Under the pieces are notes generated by a model, which saw only the letters and a program-made list of their open reading frames with translations, was not told the DNA's origin and made no database searches. This document shows, one piece after another, positions 1,497 through 62,611 of a stretch of DNA of 64,000 nucleotides. The stretch is from Thiosulfativibrio zosterae. GTDB lineage: Bacteria; Pseudomonadota; Gammaproteobacteria; Thiomicrospirales; Thiomicrospiraceae. The DNA lies in assembly GCF_011398155.1 (NCBI RefSeq), contig NZ_AP021888.1, positions 1,533,501 to 1,597,500 of the forward strand. The letters run 5' to 3'. Positions within the stretch are counted from its first letter, which is position 1, and each line of letters opens with the position of its first letter. Both the position numbers and the translations under genes were made by a program.

Positions 1497-1510
1497 AACC
1501 AGGCCTGGTT
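1497..1510. repeat. AACCAGGCCTGGTT palindrome, copy 1
   Basis: Perfect 14-bp palindrome in the short gap between cheV and rnhB. Read on the minus strand, AAATTT precedes it and ATTTTT follows it, so it forms a hairpin with a T-rich tail just past the rnhB stop and could terminate the envelope operon. One of thirteen copies or near-copies in the window. Confidence 0.9.
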
Positions 1511-4538: not shown

Positions 4539-5582
4539 TTATTTTTCTTCCAGTTGATTTTTTAATTCTTTGATTGATTGCTCAAGGTCTTTAATTTGCA
4601 GAGCCATTTTCTGTAAGTTTTTAGCTCTAACGGTATTTTTTTGCCATTCACCTGTCGGTATGGCTGGAAAACCAGAGTAACTTCCAGGTTGTTTGAGCGA
4701 GTGAGTGACGCCCGCTTTTGCCATAACCATTACACCATCTGATATTTTTAAATGCCCCACAACACCAGCCTGCCCTGCAAAAATGCACTGTTTTCCGACT
4801 TGTGAGCTACCCGCAAATCCAGTTTGAGCAGCAATGGCACTGCCTTGTCCAATCTTAACATTATGAGCAATATGCACTAAGTTGTCTATAATGCAATCAT
4901 CTTCAATCACGGTATCCTGTAAGGTGCCTCGATCAATGGTTGTATTGTTTCCAATGGAAACATGATTACCAATTATGACTCTACCAATTTGAGGAATTCT
5001 AATCCACTGCCCTGCCTGAGGCGCAAAACCAAAACCTTCGCCACCGATGACGCATCCGGCTTGCAAAATAACCTCATCACCCAAAACACAGTCATTCATA
5101 ATCACCACATTTGGGCCTAAGTAACAGTTTTTTCCTAAAGTAACATTTTTACCTAAGTAACAACCCGCTGAAATTTGACAACCTTCTCCAAGAAGCACAC
5201 CTGATTCTATAACAACATTCGGTCCGATATAACAGCTAGCAGGAACAACCACAGAACCGTCAACAACGGCTGAGGGGTGAATTCCTTTTTGACTGGGTAA
5301 AGGATTGAATTTTTGGGCAAGGAGCGCGTATACATAATAGGGATTTTTAACGATTAAGCGATTACAAACCGTTAAATCCGAAAATTCAGCCTTTAAAATA
5401 ACCAGGCCTGCTTGAGTCGACTTTAATTGTTCTTTGCGTTTGGGGTCATTAAAAAAGGCAATCTCTTGAGAGGTTGCCTTTTCCAAATCTGCCACTTTTG
5501 TCAATGCTAGGGCATCTTTACCCTGATACTCAAACTCAATTTCATTTTGAGACAAAAATTCTAGTAATTCGTCCTTTTGCAC
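4539..5582 (-). CDS. lpxD: UDP-3-O-(3-hydroxyacyl)glucosamine N-acyltransferase
   Basis: Third lipid A enzyme: adds the N-linked 3-hydroxyacyl chain from ACP. The N-terminal uridine-binding domain (about 1-100) is followed by hexapeptide beta-helix repeats and a C-terminal helical extension ([16 protein letters not shown]). The catalytic histidine region is [20 protein letters not shown]. Its 347 residues match the family. It lies 16 bases after the skp stop. A one-mismatch copy of the dispersed palindrome is embedded in the gene near 5400. Confidence 0.96.
5400..5413. repeat. Near-copy of the AACCAGGCCTGGTT motif inside lpxD
   Basis: AACCAGGCCTGC: one mismatch in the 10-bp core. On the coding strand it reads GCAGGCCTGGTT and encodes A-G-L-V. 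The intact half AGGCCTGGTT is shared with near-copies in acnB and the EamA gene. Confidence 0.6.
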
Positions 5583-12991: not shown

Positions 12992-13028
12992 AAAAAGCCA
13001 TGGCACACAAAACATACCATGGCTTTTT
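12992..13028 (-). terminator. Terminator after tsf
   Basis: Arms AAAAAGCCATGG (12992-13003) and CCATGGCTTTTT (13017-13028) form a 12-bp stem with a 13-base loop and T-run, placed 15 bases past the tsf stop. Nearly symmetrical, so it could work in both directions. Confidence 0.88.
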
Positions 13029-13042
13029 ATCATAACAACAAA

Positions 13043-13930
13043 TTAACCTTTTTGAGCCGCAGCTGCCGCAGCCGCTACTTCATCAGCAAAGTTAGTTTGT
13101 TCAATCACAATACCCTCACCCACTTCTAAACGAATGAAACCTTTACAAGCTGCATTGTTAGACTTAAGCAATTTTTCAACTGTTTGATCTGGATCTTTAA
13201 TGAAAGACTGACCTAACAAAGTAATGTCTTGAAGGTATTTACGCATACGCCCTTCAATCATTTTCTCAATGATTTCCATTGGCTTGCCAGATTCTTGAGC
13301 TTGTTCGATTTGGAACTTGCGCTCTTTTTCTAAGACTTCAGGATCTACCTCATCAGAAGACAAGGCTTGTGGCTTAGAAGCCGCAACATGCATCGCTAAA
13401 TCACGAGATAAAGCTTCATCTCCACCCTCTAAACTGACCACAACACCAATTTTTTCACCGTGTTGATATTGACCAATCTGACCAGAAGTTTCGACTAACT
13501 CCATGCGACGAACCGCCATGTTTTCACCGATACGAGCAATCATTTCACGACGAGTTTGATCAATTGTCTTACCAGAAGCCATTTTTTCGTTCATTAAACT
13601 TTCGATGTCTAGATTGCCAGTTGCTAAAGCAATCGCAGCGATTTCGTTTGCAAAGTTTTTAAATTCATCACCCTTAGCAACGAAATCTGTTTCACAGTTA
13701 ACTTCTGCAATGATTGCTTTTTTCTTGTCATCAGAAACTGCAATTGCAATGACACCTTCTGCAGCAACACGGCCTGCTTTTTTATCAGCGCTTGCCATAC
13801 CTTTTTTGCGAAGAAACTCAATCGCCGCTTCCATATCACCGTCAACTTCTGCCAACGCTTTTTTACAATCCATCATACCTGCGCCAGTCATTTCGCGCAG
13901 TTCTTTAACCATACCAGCTGTAATTGCCAT
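13043..13930 (-). CDS. tsf: Translation elongation factor Ts
   Basis: Nucleotide exchange factor for EF-Tu. The start MAITAGMVKELREMTGAGMM at 13930 is the family N-terminus and has AAGGA about ten bases upstream; 14 extra in-frame codons to 13972 are rejected because they enter the rpsB-tsf terminator structure. The conserved MDCKKALAE and NCETDFVAK are present. Length 295 residues. A terminator-like switch lies between rpsB and this gene and may set the S2:EF-Ts ratio. Confidence 0.97.
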   Translation of the reverse strand: MAITAGMVKELREMTGAGMMDCKKALAEVDGDMEAAIEFLRKKGMASADKKAGRVAAEGVIAIAVSDDKKKAIIAEVNCETDFVAKGDEFKNFANEIAAIALATGNLDIESLMNEKMASGKTIDQTRREMIARIGENMAVRRMELVETSGQIGQYQHGEKIGVVVSLEGGDEALSRDLAMHVAASKPQALSSDEVDPEVLEKERKFQIEQAQESGKPMEIIEKMIEGRMRKYLQDITLLGQSFIKDPDQTVEKLLKSNNAACKGFIRLEVGEGIVIEQTNFADEVAAAAAAAQKG

Positions 13931-13962: not shown

Positions 13963-14001
13963 CTAAAAACAAAAAGGCCCGGTTTTTGACCAGGCCTGGT
14001 T
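13963..14001 (-). terminator. Terminator/palindrome pair between rpsB and tsf (possible attenuator)
   Basis: In the rpsB-tsf transcript AGGCCUGGU (13997-13989) can pair with ACCGGGCCU (13983-13975) around a five-base loop, followed by a T-rich tract: a classic terminator. The same AGGCCUGGU is the right half of the dispersed palindrome ACCAGGCCTGGT (13989-14000), which can fold on itself instead. The two hairpins exclude each other. Partial readthrough must occur for tsf to be made from the rpsB promoter. Confidence 0.7.
13988..14001. repeat. AACCAGGCCTGGTT motif, copy between rpsB and tsf
   Basis: GACCAGGCCTGGTT: exact 10-bp core at 13990-13999, first base of the 14-mer differs. Its left part doubles as one arm of the rpsB-tsf terminator. 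Confidence 0.9.
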
Positions 14002-14014
14002 CAAATATCTAAAC

Positions 14015-14755
14015 TTATTCTGCTTTTTCTGCTTCTACGAAGTCATCACCTTCAACAGTAGCACCTGTTGTAATGGTTGATTTGCCTTCGTTTACTGCTG
14101 CTGCAACGGCAGACAAGTATAAAGTGATGGCACGAATCGCATCATCGTTACCAGGAATAACATAATCTAATCCCATAGGGTCGTTATTAGTATCGACAAC
14201 ACCAACCACTGGAATACCTAAGTTTTTAGCTTCTTGAATAGCAATTTTTTCATTTCCTGTGTCGATAATGAAAATAGCATCTGGCATAGCGCGCATATCT
14301 TTGATACCGCCCAAAGAAAGCTCTAACTTAGCTTTTTGACGCGTTAACATCAAAGCTTCTTTTTTGGTGATTTTTTCAAAAGTACCATCTTGTTCCATAG
14401 TCTCAAGTTCTTTTAAACGCTTGATAGACTGTTTGATGGTTTTGAAGTTAGTCAACATACCACCCAACCAACGGTAGTCAACATAAGGCATGCCGCAGCT
14501 TTTAGCGAATTCAGCAACCAATGGACCTGCAGCTTTCTTAGTTCCAACAAAAAGGACACTGCCTTTTTTAGCTGCAACGCCACCTAAAAAGTTCAACGCG
14601 TCGTTAAACATAGGTAGTGTTTTTTCTAGGTTGATGATATGAATTTTGTTTCTTGCACCATAGATGTACTGAGACATCTTTGGGTTCCAATAACGCGTTT
14701 GGTGACCGAAGTGAACACCGGCTTCTAGCATTTCACGCATAGTGACTTTTGCCAT
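14015..14755 (-). CDS. rpsB: Ribosomal protein S2
   Basis: Small-subunit protein S2. The 246-residue sequence starting [20 protein letters not shown] matches the family; GGAGA lies eight bases before this ATG, and the 59 upstream in-frame codons are the mRNA leader, not protein. FVGTKKAA and [13 protein letters not shown] are typical. Transcribed from a strong promoter near 14904-14932, leaving a leader of about 140 bases; in E. coli S2 represses its own rpsB-tsf mRNA through the leader, so the same is likely here. Confidence 0.97.
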
Positions 14756-14897
14756 GATTTTTTCTCCAATAGTTGGGTTATGCCTCCGCTTATCCCAAAA
14801 AACGAACTTTAAAAAGACTAACTTCTTAAAGCACCCCGTTTGATGTGCCGACAAGCGTGTGGATTTTTTGTTAAAATTAGCTCTCATTTGAGAAAGC
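14756..14897 (-). promoter_or_regulatory. rpsB mRNA leader, probable S2 autoregulation site
   Basis: About 140 untranslated bases between the inferred transcription start and the rpsB ATG, rich in short complementary segments (for example GGGGTGCTTTAAGAAG and CTTTTTAAAG). S2-mediated autogenous control through the leader is established in E. coli and reported as conserved in gammaproteobacteria. I infer it here from position and length; the exact fold was not computed. Confidence 0.45.
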
Positions 14898-20378: not shown

Positions 20379-20392
20379 AACCAGGCCTGGTT
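20379..20392. repeat. AACCAGGCCTGGTT palindrome after the lipoprotein gene
   Basis: Exact 14-bp copy, 18 bases past the lipoprotein stop in the convergent gap before minE. A second, unrelated hairpin follows at 20406-20441. Confidence 0.9.
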
Positions 20393-27972: not shown

Positions 27973-28018
27973 AATTGCGCTTAAAAATGACCAGGCCTGG
28001 TTGTTTTTAGGCGCAATT
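27973..28018 (+). terminator. purB terminator built around the palindrome
   Basis: Arms 27973-27987 and 28004-28018 (AATTGCGC..AAAAA against TTTTT..GCGCAATT) pair over 15 bases with one wobble and enclose ACCAGGCCTGGT. It lies 15 bases past the purB stop. The outer arms are unrelated to those at 44850-44897 although the core is the same. Confidence 0.85.
27989..28002. repeat. AACCAGGCCTGGTT motif in the purB terminator
   Basis: GACCAGGCCTGGTT: exact 10-bp core at 27991-28000, forming the tip of the purB terminator. Confidence 0.9.
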
Positions 28019-31772: not shown

Positions 31773-31799
31773 AAAAACCACCAGGTCTGGTGGTTTTTT
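31773..31799 (+). terminator. Terminator between transglutaminase gene and roxA
   Basis: AAAAACCACCAG and CTGGTGGTTTTT form a near-perfect stem around GT with a T-run. The centre CCAGGTCTGG is a one-mismatch copy of the dispersed core. It ends the upstream gene and would also catch any transcript starting at the -10 near 31750. Confidence 0.85.
31779..31792. repeat. Near-copy of the AACCAGGCCTGGTT motif before roxA
   Basis: CACCAGGTCTGGTG: one mismatch in the 10-bp core (GT for GC), keeping the hairpin. It is the centre of the terminator at 31773-31799. Confidence 0.6.
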
Positions 31800-35344: not shown

Positions 35345-36076
35345 TTATTGCGGCAACGCCGCAAAATCTAATAAGACTTCAGTGCGTTCTTGCCCCACCA
35401 CTTGGCTAATGGGTAAAGGCTCACCCGCTAACCATTGTTGCACGGCGGGTTGTTTGCCTGCACCTGTGACCAATTTCATCACGAAGCGTGCATTGCTCAA
35501 ACATTCAAAAGACAAAGACACTCGCTCGGGTGGCATTTTTGGTGAGTTAAATTCCGTCACCACCTTTTGTCCTGTTGGGTAATCATGGCCTGGGAACAAG
35601 CTGGCGGTATGCCCATCTTCACCCATGCCTAACATCACCACATCAAAACAAGACACCTCTTTGAGCACTTTTTCATAAGCGGCAGCCGCTGCCCTTGCGC
35701 CTAATTCCGCAGGCATAAAAAAGATATTTTGTGCCGGAATTTGCCCTAAATTTAACCAGGCCTGGTCAAGATTAAGGCTATTTCGCTCTTGATCGTCTGC
35801 GGGCAAACAACGCTCATCCCCCATATAAATAAACCATTTGGCCCATTCAATATCCGCTTTTGATGAAGTCAAGTCCGCTAATAAACGATAACAGGCCATC
35901 GGCGTTGTACCGCCCGCTGTCACTAGATGAAACGCCCCTCTTTCAGCAATCGCTTGAGTTGCGCGCTCTAGAATTAAATCCACAGTTGCCTGCGCCACAG
36001 TAGCGGCATCAGCATAAACCAACCAATGGTCTGGCAAGGTGGTTAAATTGGCATCCGCCACTTCAACTTCACTCAT
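35345..36076 (-). CDS. pgl: 6-phosphogluconolactonase
   Basis: Hydrolyses 6-phosphogluconolactone, the second step of the oxidative pentose phosphate pathway. The 243-residue protein belongs to the NagB/PGL fold: VTAGGTTPMACYRLL, YMGDERCLPADDQERNS and MGEDGHTASLFPGH are diagnostic. It starts one base after the zwf stop, as the third gene of gnd-zwf-pgl. It contains an exact core copy of the dispersed palindrome, read as D-Q-A-W-L. Confidence 0.96.
   Translation of the reverse strand: MSEVEVADANLTTLPDHWLVYADAATVAQATVDLILERATQAIAERGAFHLVTAGGTTPMACYRLLADLTSSKADIEWAKWFIYMGDERCLPADDQERNSLNLDQAWLNLGQIPAQNIFFMPAELGARAAAAAYEKVLKEVSCFDVVMLGMGEDGHTASLFPGHDYPTGQKVVTEFNSPKMPPERVSLSFECLSNARFVMKLVTGAGKQPAVQQWLAGEPLPISQVVGQERTEVLLDFAALPQ
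35754..35767. repeat. AACCAGGCCTGGTT motif inside pgl
   Basis: AACCAGGCCTGGTC with exact core at 35756-35765, within the coding sequence. On the coding strand the first core base is a third codon position (GAC CAG GCC TGG). Confidence 0.9.
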
Positions 36077-39146: not shown

Positions 39147-39160
39147 AACCAGGCCTGGTT
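39147..39160. repeat. AACCAGGCCTGGTT palindrome upstream of gnd
   Basis: Exact copy, extended here by AAATTT on both sides to a perfect 26-bp palindrome at 39141-39166. It lies between the tRNA cluster terminator and gnd. A second short hairpin (AAAAAGCCTTA/TAAGGTTTTT, about 39174-39195) follows. Confidence 0.92.
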
Positions 39161-44849: not shown

Positions 44850-44897
44850 AAAAAGCCGCTAAAAACAACCAGGCCTGGTCATTTTTAGCGGCTTTTT
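44850..44897. terminator. Bidirectional terminator between slyX and the chemoreceptor gene
   Basis: Arms AAAAAGCCGCTAAAAA (44850-44865) and TTTTTAGCGGCTTTTT (44882-44897) are fully complementary and enclose the ACCAGGCCTGGT core. Symmetrical with A/T-runs on both sides, between convergent genes. Confidence 0.93.
44867..44880. repeat. AACCAGGCCTGGTT motif in the slyX terminator
   Basis: AACCAGGCCTGGTC, exact core at 44869-44878, at the tip of the slyX/chemoreceptor terminator. Confidence 0.9.
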
Positions 44898-55939: not shown

Positions 55940-56452
55940 ATGCAAATTTTCATTACCGGCGGCACCCTTGATAAAGATTATCACCCGATTCAAGGGCAAC
56001 TGACATTCGAGAAAACTCAGCTGCCAGAAATGCTCGCCCAAGCTAATCTAACGCAACCCACCGCCCTAAGTGTTTTAATGCTCAAAGACAGCTTAGAAAT
56101 GACCGATGCCGATCGCAAAATCATCACCGAGTCTTGTTTGAACTGCAGCGACAACCAAATCCTCATTACCCATGGCACAGACACCATGCCCATAACAGCC
56201 GCCACCCTTCTCAAACATCATACGCAAATGCCCGAGAAAACCATTGTACTCACTGGCGCTATGCGTCCTTTTGCTTTAGGCAATTCTGATGCGACGTTTA
56301 ATCTTGGCAGTGCCATTATGGCGTTAAATTTAACCAGGCCTGGTGTTTATATTGCCATGAATGGGCAATTATTTGAGGCAGGTAAAGTCACTAAAAACAC
56401 CCAAAAAGGGCTTTTTGAAGTCACATCACCTAGCAACAACTTAACAACTTAA
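55940..56452 (+). CDS. Asparaginase N-domain protein
   Basis: 170-residue homologue of the N-terminal domain of type I/II L-asparaginases with TGGTLDKDY (first catalytic Thr), LITHGTDTMPIT (second Thr-Asp) and VLTGAMRPFALGNSDATFNL. The usual C-terminal domain (another 150 or so residues) is missing; stand-alone versions occur in other proteobacteria. Activity is uncertain. The stop codon falls within a 16-bp tandem repeat. It contains an exact core copy of the dispersed palindrome encoding T-R-P-G. Confidence 0.85.
   Translation: MQIFITGGTLDKDYHPIQGQLTFEKTQLPEMLAQANLTQPTALSVLMLKDSLEMTDADRKIITESCLNCSDNQILITHGTDTMPITAATLLKHHTQMPEKTIVLTGAMRPFALGNSDATFNLGSAIMALNLTRPGVYIAMNGQLFEAGKVTKNTQKGLFEVTSPSNNLTT
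56332..56345. repeat. AACCAGGCCTGGTT motif inside the asparaginase-like gene
   Basis: AACCAGGCCTGGTG, exact core at 56334-56343. The first core base is a second codon position (ACC AGG CCT GGT). Confidence 0.9.
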
Positions 56453-61285: not shown

Positions 61286-62611
61286 ATGACACCAAAAGCT
61301 AGTCCGACTCAAAATGACCGCTCGCCTTTAATTTTGGGCATTGACCTAGGCACCTCTGGCATTCGTGGCGCGCTGATTGATACTCAAACTCGCCAGCCGA
61401 TCGCTTTTTACGCGGTACCCCTGGCGCTACCCATCAGAAATGCCAACACCAGCGAGCAATCTCCAGAGCTGTGGCTTGAGGGTTTTGAACTGCTGTTACG
61501 CAAAATACAAAACGCCCAACAGACTGCGTTCATAGAACACATCATTCTTGACGCCACCTCATCAACCGTTTGCTTGGTTAATGCCGACTATCAGCCAGTA
61601 TCAATGGCATTGATGTATGACGATAAACGCGCCACCGCAGAAGCGCAATTGATTGCCAAAATTGCACCGAGAAACAGCGGTGCACACGGTGCTTCCAGCA
61701 CCTTAGCCAAAGTGATGTGGCTTTATGAAAACACCCCACACTCAGAATCGTTTTTTGTGTGCCACCAAATAGATTTTATCAATGTTTTTTTAACTGGCTT
61801 ACCTCAAATTACCGATGCCAATAATGCTTTAAAAATGGGATTTGACCCCATCAACATGGTTTGGCCAGATTGGATTTCGCAATTACTCCCAACCATCACG
61901 CTGCCAAAAGTGGTGCTTCCAGGCGATTTTTTGGGCCAAATTCAACCAGGCCTGGTTGAAAAATATGGGTTTTCCAGCAAAACCAAAGTTTATGCTGGTA
62001 CCACAGACAGTATTGCCGCTTTTTTAGCCAGTGGCGCTCACCAACTGGGGGATGCCGTAACATCATTAGGGTCAACCCTGGCACTTAAACTCATCACAGA
62101 AAAACCCATCTTTGCCCCAGAATATGGCATTTACAGTCATCGACTTAAAAATCAATGGCTGGTGGGCGGCGCCTCTAATACGGGCGGTGCCGTTTTGTTA
62201 AAGCACTTTGATTTAGAGGCGTTAATCGAGCATCTTAAAAAAATACCCGAGCGACCCCAAAATACGCATCTCGATTACTATCCCTTGCTTTGCCAAGGAG
62301 AAAGATTTCCCATTTCAGACCCCTGTTTTCAAGGCAATTTAGACCCAATACCCGATAATCCAGAAACATTTTTATTGGGTTTGATTGAAGGGTTGGTGTC
62401 TGTAGAAAAATTAGGATATCAGCGCTTAACTGAATTGGGCGCAAGCCCTGTGACTCGAATATTTACCGCGGGTGGAGGATTGAAAAACCGCGTATGGATG
62501 ACTTTAAGAAGTCAAGAATTGAGCGCTCCAGTGCTGCAAAGTTTGCACACTGAAGCGGCTTTTGGTGTGACACAGTTACTTGAGATTCAATCGTTTAACG
62601 ATCAAACTTAA
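61286..62611 (+). CDS. FGGY-family carbohydrate kinase
   Basis: Sugar kinase related to D-ribulose/xylulose kinases. The 441 residues show the ATPase-fold phosphate motif GIDLGTSGIRGALID, GTTDSIAAFLASGAH and the C-terminal adenosine motif RIFTAGGGLKNRVW. The ATG at 61286 has GAAGAG nine bases upstream; the in-frame ATG at 61244 is an alternative. A pentulose substrate is inferred, supported only by the convergent cbbY and the pentose phosphate genes elsewhere. An exact palindrome copy lies inside the gene. Confidence 0.85.
   Translation: MTPKASPTQNDRSPLILGIDLGTSGIRGALIDTQTRQPIAFYAVPLALPIRNANTSEQSPELWLEGFELLLRKIQNAQQTAFIEHIILDATSSTVCLVNADYQPVSMALMYDDKRATAEAQLIAKIAPRNSGAHGASSTLAKVMWLYENTPHSESFFVCHQIDFINVFLTGLPQITDANNALKMGFDPINMVWPDWISQLLPTITLPKVVLPGDFLGQIQPGLVEKYGFSSKTKVYAGTTDSIAAFLASGAHQLGDAVTSLGSTLALKLITEKPIFAPEYGIYSHRLKNQWLVGGASNTGGAVLLKHFDLEALIEHLKKIPERPQNTHLDYYPLLCQGERFPISDPCFQGNLDPIPDNPETFLLGLIEGLVSVEKLGYQRLTELGASPVTRIFTAGGGLKNRVWMTLRSQELSAPVLQSLHTEAAFGVTQLLEIQSFNDQT
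61944..61957. repeat. AACCAGGCCTGGTT palindrome inside the FGGY kinase gene
   Basis: Perfect 14-mer, extended by TTC/GAA to a 20-bp palindrome (61941-61960). First core base is a first codon position (CAA CCA GGC CTG GTT). Confidence 0.92.

Follow-up and report, generated by a model that had tools for sequence, protein, structure and literature searches.

The spacer between rpsB and tsf in Thiosulfativibrio zosterae raises the question of why a 12-nt palindrome, ACCAGGCCTGGT, should overlap a predicted transcription terminator inside an operon encoding ribosomal protein S2 and elongation factor Ts. The sequence-only reading of this DNA had proposed that the palindrome can pair in RNA either with itself or with a segment further downstream, and that the two folds form an attenuator that sets the ratio of S2 to EF-Ts. 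We analysed the locus within a 64,000-nt stretch of the chromosome, referred to here as the window, as well as in the complete source genome (G000) and in its relatives. We find that the palindrome belongs to a highly iterated repeat, which is present in hundreds of copies and at conserved positions within one bacterial family. The coordinates of the features in the window are collected in Table 1.

Table 1. The rpsB-tsf locus and the copies of the dispersed palindrome in the 64,000-nt window
Feature	Position in window	Strand	Evidence or remark
rpsB (ribosomal protein S2)	14015..14755	-	Pfam PF00318, E 6e-97
tsf (elongation factor Ts)	13043..13930	-	Pfam PF00889, E 8.5e-75
t44 RNA element, S2 autoregulatory leader of rpsB	14777..14879	-	Rfam RF00127, 66.9 bits vs gathering score 44
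Palindrome ACCAGGCCTGGT, copy in rpsB-tsf spacer	13989..14000		exact match
Intrinsic-terminator stem-loop, 5′ arm formed by the right part of the palindrome	13975..13997	-	-15.1 kcal/mol
Terminator U-tract UUUUGUUUUU	13965..13974	-	
Dispersed palindrome, exact copy	1498..1509		
Dispersed palindrome, exact copy	20380..20391		
Dispersed palindrome, exact copy	27990..28001		apex of longer inverted repeat
Dispersed palindrome, exact copy	35755..35766		in 243-aa ORF (peptide DQAWL)
Dispersed palindrome, exact copy	39148..39159		
Dispersed palindrome, exact copy	44868..44879		apex of terminator-like hairpin
Dispersed palindrome, exact copy	56333..56344		in 170-aa ORF (peptide TRPG)
Dispersed palindrome, exact copy	61945..61956		in 455-aa ORF (peptide PGLV)
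One-mismatch copy ACCAGGCCTGCT	5401..5412		
One-mismatch copy ACCAGGTCTGGT	31780..31791		

On the minus strand, the stop codon of rpsB is found at 14017-14015 and the ATG of tsf at 13930, leaving a spacer of 84 nt. The palindrome (14000-13989) and an overlapping terminator (13997-13975) are indeed both present in this spacer. The terminator is laid out as AGGCCUGGU-CAAAA-ACCGGGCCU followed by UUUUGUUUUU, where the 5′ arm (13997-13989) consists of the right-hand 9 nt of the palindrome and the 3′ arm occupies 13983-13975. It has the makeup of an intrinsic terminator, namely a 9-bp GC-rich stem-loop of -15.1 kcal/mol with the U-tract directly after it. The U-tract had been placed directly before tsf, which is not the case, as it ends about 34 nt ahead of the start codon. 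Folding of the whole spacer gave -20.7 kcal/mol (z = -3.4), a value that none of 200 shuffled sequences equalled. The only Rfam match was the t44 element upstream of rpsB, known in E. coli as the S2 operator; no Rfam family was matched in the spacer itself. Nor did the minus strand of the spacer show a sigma-70-like promoter, so expression of tsf probably needs read-through. Between tsf and pyrH, at 12995-13034, we observed a long inverted repeat, AAAAGCCATGG...CCATGGCTTTTT, that resembles a bidirectional terminator, and other family members also have a hairpin at this place.

Pairing of the full palindrome with itself is impossible in the RNA, where only ACCA and UGGU can form a hairpin (4 bp, -2.0 kcal/mol). 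This hairpin and the terminator overlap and cannot coexist, so the proposed mutual exclusivity holds, and termination ahead of tsf is plausible; both points speak for an attenuator in which the competing folds set the ratio of S2 to EF-Ts. The two folds are nevertheless separated by 13 kcal/mol (-2.0 against -15.1 kcal/mol), and the competitor at the 5′ arm is not conserved, amounting to between 0 and -4.8 kcal/mol in 29 of 30 family spacers. When the growing transcript was folded, the terminator displaced the 4-bp hairpin once ACCGG of the 3′ arm had been made. Furthermore, the presence of the palindrome is already accounted for by the 288 other copies in the genome. On the folding energies and the lack of conservation of the competitor we reject a competing-fold switch, and would grant the model hardly any probability. 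The part of the regulatory proposal that stands is that a partial terminator likely lowers tsf relative to rpsB. Judged from this analysis, the hairpin containing the palindrome half is likely an ordinary leaky stop signal, which would reduce tsf below rpsB as in E. coli.

A terminator at this place has precedents, although the sequence-only reading knew of no description of the arrangement. In E. coli a partial terminator is located between rpsB and tsf, with a read-through of about one third (PMC2834685). The two arrangements share the position in the operon, a GC-rich hairpin with a U-tract and the t44/S2 operator upstream. They differ in the length of the spacer, which is 84 nt here and 257 nt in E. 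coli, and in that the 5′ arm described here has been recruited from a genome-wide palindrome. Terminator-like hairpins between rpsB and tsf occur in many phyla, and we found them in the spacers of Citrobacter, Kluyvera, Aeromonas, Tolumonas, Ferrimonas, Listeria and C. difficile. Within the host family, all 30 spacers contain a hairpin of -12.6 kcal/mol or better, followed in 14 of them by at least five T within the next 8 nt. The palindrome is missing from the spacer where the genome does not have the repeat, though the hairpin is kept, and inspection of the spacers of G002, G013, G025 and G034 showed a stem whose sequence has wholly changed with the hairpin still present. Four spacers (G018, G009, G023 and G026; L094, L097, L093 and L098) contain two palindromes 3-4 nt apart, and these form an 11-12-bp hairpin without a strong U-tract. 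In some relatives a further copy precedes rpsB, at a distance of about 880 nt from tsf (G026 and G032, and in another dialect G025).

The palindrome owes its presence in the rpsB-tsf spacer to being a genome-wide repeat. The spacer, used as a query, matched dozens of other places, and ACCAGGCCTGGT has 289 exact matches in the 2,645,427-bp source genome, against less than one expected by composition and none for the reversed control. Nine of the 289 are within the window. Our statistics for G000 combine such whole-genome pattern counts with a 464-kb sample, in which ACCAGGCCTGGT is the strongest palindrome (55 copies against 0.01 expected by composition). By gene calls from a simple codon-usage script, 27 of the 55 sampled copies fall inside genes, with all three frames represented (peptides QAW, PGLV and TRPG), and the remaining 28 between genes at a 9-fold higher density per base. 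Eleven of the 55 overlap terminator-like hairpins, as do 1-3 copies in the other genomes examined. Copies with one mismatch are few and deviate mostly at the outer positions of the motif. The flanks are AT-rich and differ between genera, and their compositional bias is short. Genes resembling recN, recO, uvrB, rsmG and prmC by sequence are among those with a copy inside (L182, L191, L194, L197 and L203); for uptake sequences, a bias to genome-maintenance genes has been reported.

Samples of 20 kb round the chromosome contained 1-4 copies each, including those near the GC-skew switch at ~1.4 Mb, and thus revealed neither enrichment nor depletion at the switch of the kind known for MatP, SlmA and Noc sites. 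The spacing between copies was more even than random in G000 (CV 0.74, p 0.0013, calculated from the gaps between the first 100 copies) and in G014 (CV 0.65, p < 5e-5), and this was not seen in G024, the third of the three genomes tested.

Counts of ACCAGGCCTGGT in 59 genomes of the host family form two groups, with 93-718 copies in 26 genomes, corresponding to 0.04-0.36 per kb, and 0-25 copies in the rest. The host order was represented by no other family among the genomes searched. In other families of the same class, ACCAGGCCTGGT occurred 0-1 times in each of 21 sampled genomes. It was absent from 966 kb of distant tsf loci. A virus-borne repeat is rejected, as among 2.9 million viral contigs the matches were no more than single, isolated copies (35 and 5 contigs). 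Samples of 100 kb from the repeat-poor genomes G030, G008 and G034 revealed no alternative dispersed palindromes. In the G030 samples (L226-L230) a non-palindromic 10-mer, CCAGGTTGGG, was present in 11 of 50 bins, and may stem from a family of repeated genes or be a further dispersed motif. Four genomes with 2-25 copies (G012, G017, G022 and G031) have a truncated palindrome, AACAGGCCTGGT, in the terminator of the rpsB-tsf spacer, and such truncated forms are possibly relics of a decayed repeat system.

The positions of the repeat are conserved among relatives, which is most clearly seen in sucC. A copy lies at nucleotide 677 in all carriers (10 of 10, no indel), among them all the repeat-rich g1, g3 and g5 genomes whose sucC locus was retrieved, and it is absent from repeat-poor relatives. 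As there is no change in length, the palindrome in sucC arose by substitution. Its four codons are identical in all ten carriers, compared with 26 of the 246 codons for invariant residues, and on the sucC tree three changes are needed for the repeat-rich state. The three g6 genomes fetched have no copy in sucC and 93-167 copies genome-wide. Within codons 225-229 the arginine codon next to the palindrome is AGA in nine carriers, and the codon at this place is CGT or CGC in repeat-poor relatives and G026; as the AGA is common to the nine, the conserved stretch extends upstream. In the rpsB-tsf spacer at least the 10-bp core is kept in 16 of 19 repeat-rich genomes, and no palindrome was found in the coding sequence of rpsB or tsf in 117 kb. 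For other orthologous pairs, a copy is common to both when the genomes are close (G000 and G028, 2/2) and less often when they are distant.

One member of the family, G025, has no copies of ACCAGGCCTGGT and carries TACCGGCCGGTA in its rpsB-tsf spacer, which is why ACCGGCCGGT was tested as an alternative motif. This turned out to be the strongest motif in the G025 sample. The G025 genome has 1,025 copies of it, and each of the other 58 genomes has 0-15. Written out by units, the first dialect is A-CCAGG-CCTGG-T and the second A-CCGG-CCGG-T. In the linker of uvrB, a gene identified from its sequence, the first dialect is found in G028 and the second in G025, about three codons apart. Comparison of these sequences indicates that the G025 lineage has replaced ACCAGGCCTGGT by ACCGGCCGGT, including the copies in the rpsB-tsf spacer and the uvrB linker. 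The shortening in the second dialect resembles the change in Haemophilus ducreyi, whose uptake motif differs from that of its relatives by the loss of a dinucleotide (PMC1852404).

The way in which the palindrome is scattered and kept in fixed places is much like that of the tags by which Haemophilus and Neisseria recognize their own DNA. Over-representation, placement in core genes and between genes, conservation, dialects, use in terminators and even spacing have all been reported for the DUS of Neisseriaceae and the USS of Pasteurellaceae (PMC3630211, PMC1852404, PMC1939737, PMC2397512). The repeat described here shares with them the hundreds of dispersed copies of one short exact motif (289, reversed control 0), the occurrence in genes together with enrichment between genes, the conserved orthologous positions (sucC 10/10; spacer 16/19), the lineage dialects, the even spacing and the use in terminator hairpins, the last being weaker outside G000. 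It differs from them in belonging to another family, in its lower density and in being known from sequence alone. Furthermore, described uptake sequences are not palindromes (PMC1939737), whereas the core of the present repeat is a perfect one, and we therefore say that it works like an uptake signal rather than file it as a DUS or USS. ComEC, the competence gene examined, was found in each of the 26 repeat-rich genomes and in nearly all repeat-poor ones as well, and thus does not separate the two groups. The four genomes in which ComEC was not found have palindrome counts of 0, 0, 1 and 0 (not significant).

We suggest that the palindrome could be the signal by which self-DNA is recognized for uptake during natural transformation, in the manner of DUS and USS. 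Uptake-biased recombination would then keep copies in the core genome and spread the dialect in use. The copies would also supply ready-made arms for terminator hairpins; in the rpsB-tsf spacer, one half of the palindrome does serve as the 5′ arm of the terminator. The twofold symmetry of the palindrome suggests a symmetric dimeric reader, which would be unlike the known uptake receptors. The best explanation of the locus, in which we place about even confidence, is a conserved genome-wide repeat, perhaps an uptake signal, that has been recruited into a leaky rpsB-tsf terminator. More tentatively, the repeat may represent a third, independently evolved system of self-DNA recognition outside Pasteurellaceae and Neisseriaceae, with a palindromic signal, a dimeric reader, genome-wide replacement of a dialect and recruitment into operon-internal terminators such as that of rpsB-tsf.

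To our knowledge, such signals have been described in two families of bacteria. A palindromic repeat that behaves alike in a third family offers a natural experiment on how uptake signals arise and switch dialect, including one lineage in which about a thousand copies have been exchanged for another palindrome. Should the repeat have no part in uptake, it points to a hitherto unknown DNA-binding system that acts genome-wide. Palindromic hairpins in these genomes that look designed can also be explained as recruited repeats. Surveys of uptake motifs in terminators (PMC1852404 among them) name Pasteurellaceae and Neisseriaceae only. In the open-access library searched we found no description of the dispersed palindrome; the 12-mer ACCAGGCCTGGT was absent, and the four papers containing the 10-mer core together with 'palindrom' were unrelated by title.

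The main rival to an uptake signal is that the repeat is the genome-wide site of an intracellular dimeric protein that organizes, repairs or regulates the chromosome, for example a nucleoid-associated protein, a Noc- or SlmA-like protein or a repair factor. The perfect twofold symmetry, the 10-bp core and the AT-rich flanks are what would be expected for a dimer, and the even spacing and the rarity of one-mismatch copies, which deviate mostly at outer positions, are consistent with such a protein as well. On the other hand, one lineage has swapped its dialect wholesale at about 1,000 sites, which is hard to envisage if the site is architectural and essential. Genes contain half of the copies, and there is no terminus depletion or enrichment at the GC-skew switch, unlike for MatP, SlmA and Noc sites. 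A terminus-linked chromosome site in particular is rejected on the even distribution round the chromosome. We regard the intracellular dimer as unlikely, though worth keeping in mind.

A less probable alternative is that the palindrome is a product of DNA methylation combined with biased mismatch repair, as has been proposed for HIP1 (GCGATCGC) in cyanobacteria. HIP1 and the alternative HIPs are, like the present repeat, highly iterated, lineage-restricted and in some genomes replaced by alternative palindromes (PMC4390886). The hundreds of copies of a GC-rich palindrome and the lineage-specific alternatives found here match the description by Elhai (2015; PMC4390886), and both of our dialects are made of CCWGG- or CCGG-type units. 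The motif is, however, longer than HIP1 (12 bp), and most carriers lack a matching C5 or PF01555 methyltransferase. The C5 methyltransferase family PF00145 is absent from 16 of 20 repeat-rich genomes, including G000, and in 18 of 26 no PF01555 methyltransferase scored above the cut-off; G000 and G025, the genome with the second dialect, are without both. Among the repeat-rich genomes searched, neither C5 (PF00145) nor N4/N6 (PF01555) methyltransferases tracked the repeat, and a palindrome driven by either of these is disfavoured by the absence of the genes from most carriers.

That the palindrome is solely a standard module of transcription terminators would agree with its intergenic enrichment and with the several copies that form the apex or an arm of terminator hairpins, but we consider it very improbable, as roughly every second copy is inside a gene and overlap with terminator-like hairpins is limited to 11 of 55 copies in G000 and to fewer elsewhere. 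Least probable of all is a mobile or MITE/REP-like element, which would account for the many dispersed copies and for one pair of copies with near-identical flanks, but is contradicted by the sucC copy, which arose by substitution without an indel, by flanks with only a short compositional bias and by copies in all reading frames of conserved genes. The pair in question is located at ~104,319 and ~104,511 in G000 (positions 175 and 367 of L022), with the two copies 192 bp apart, and is a small local duplication.
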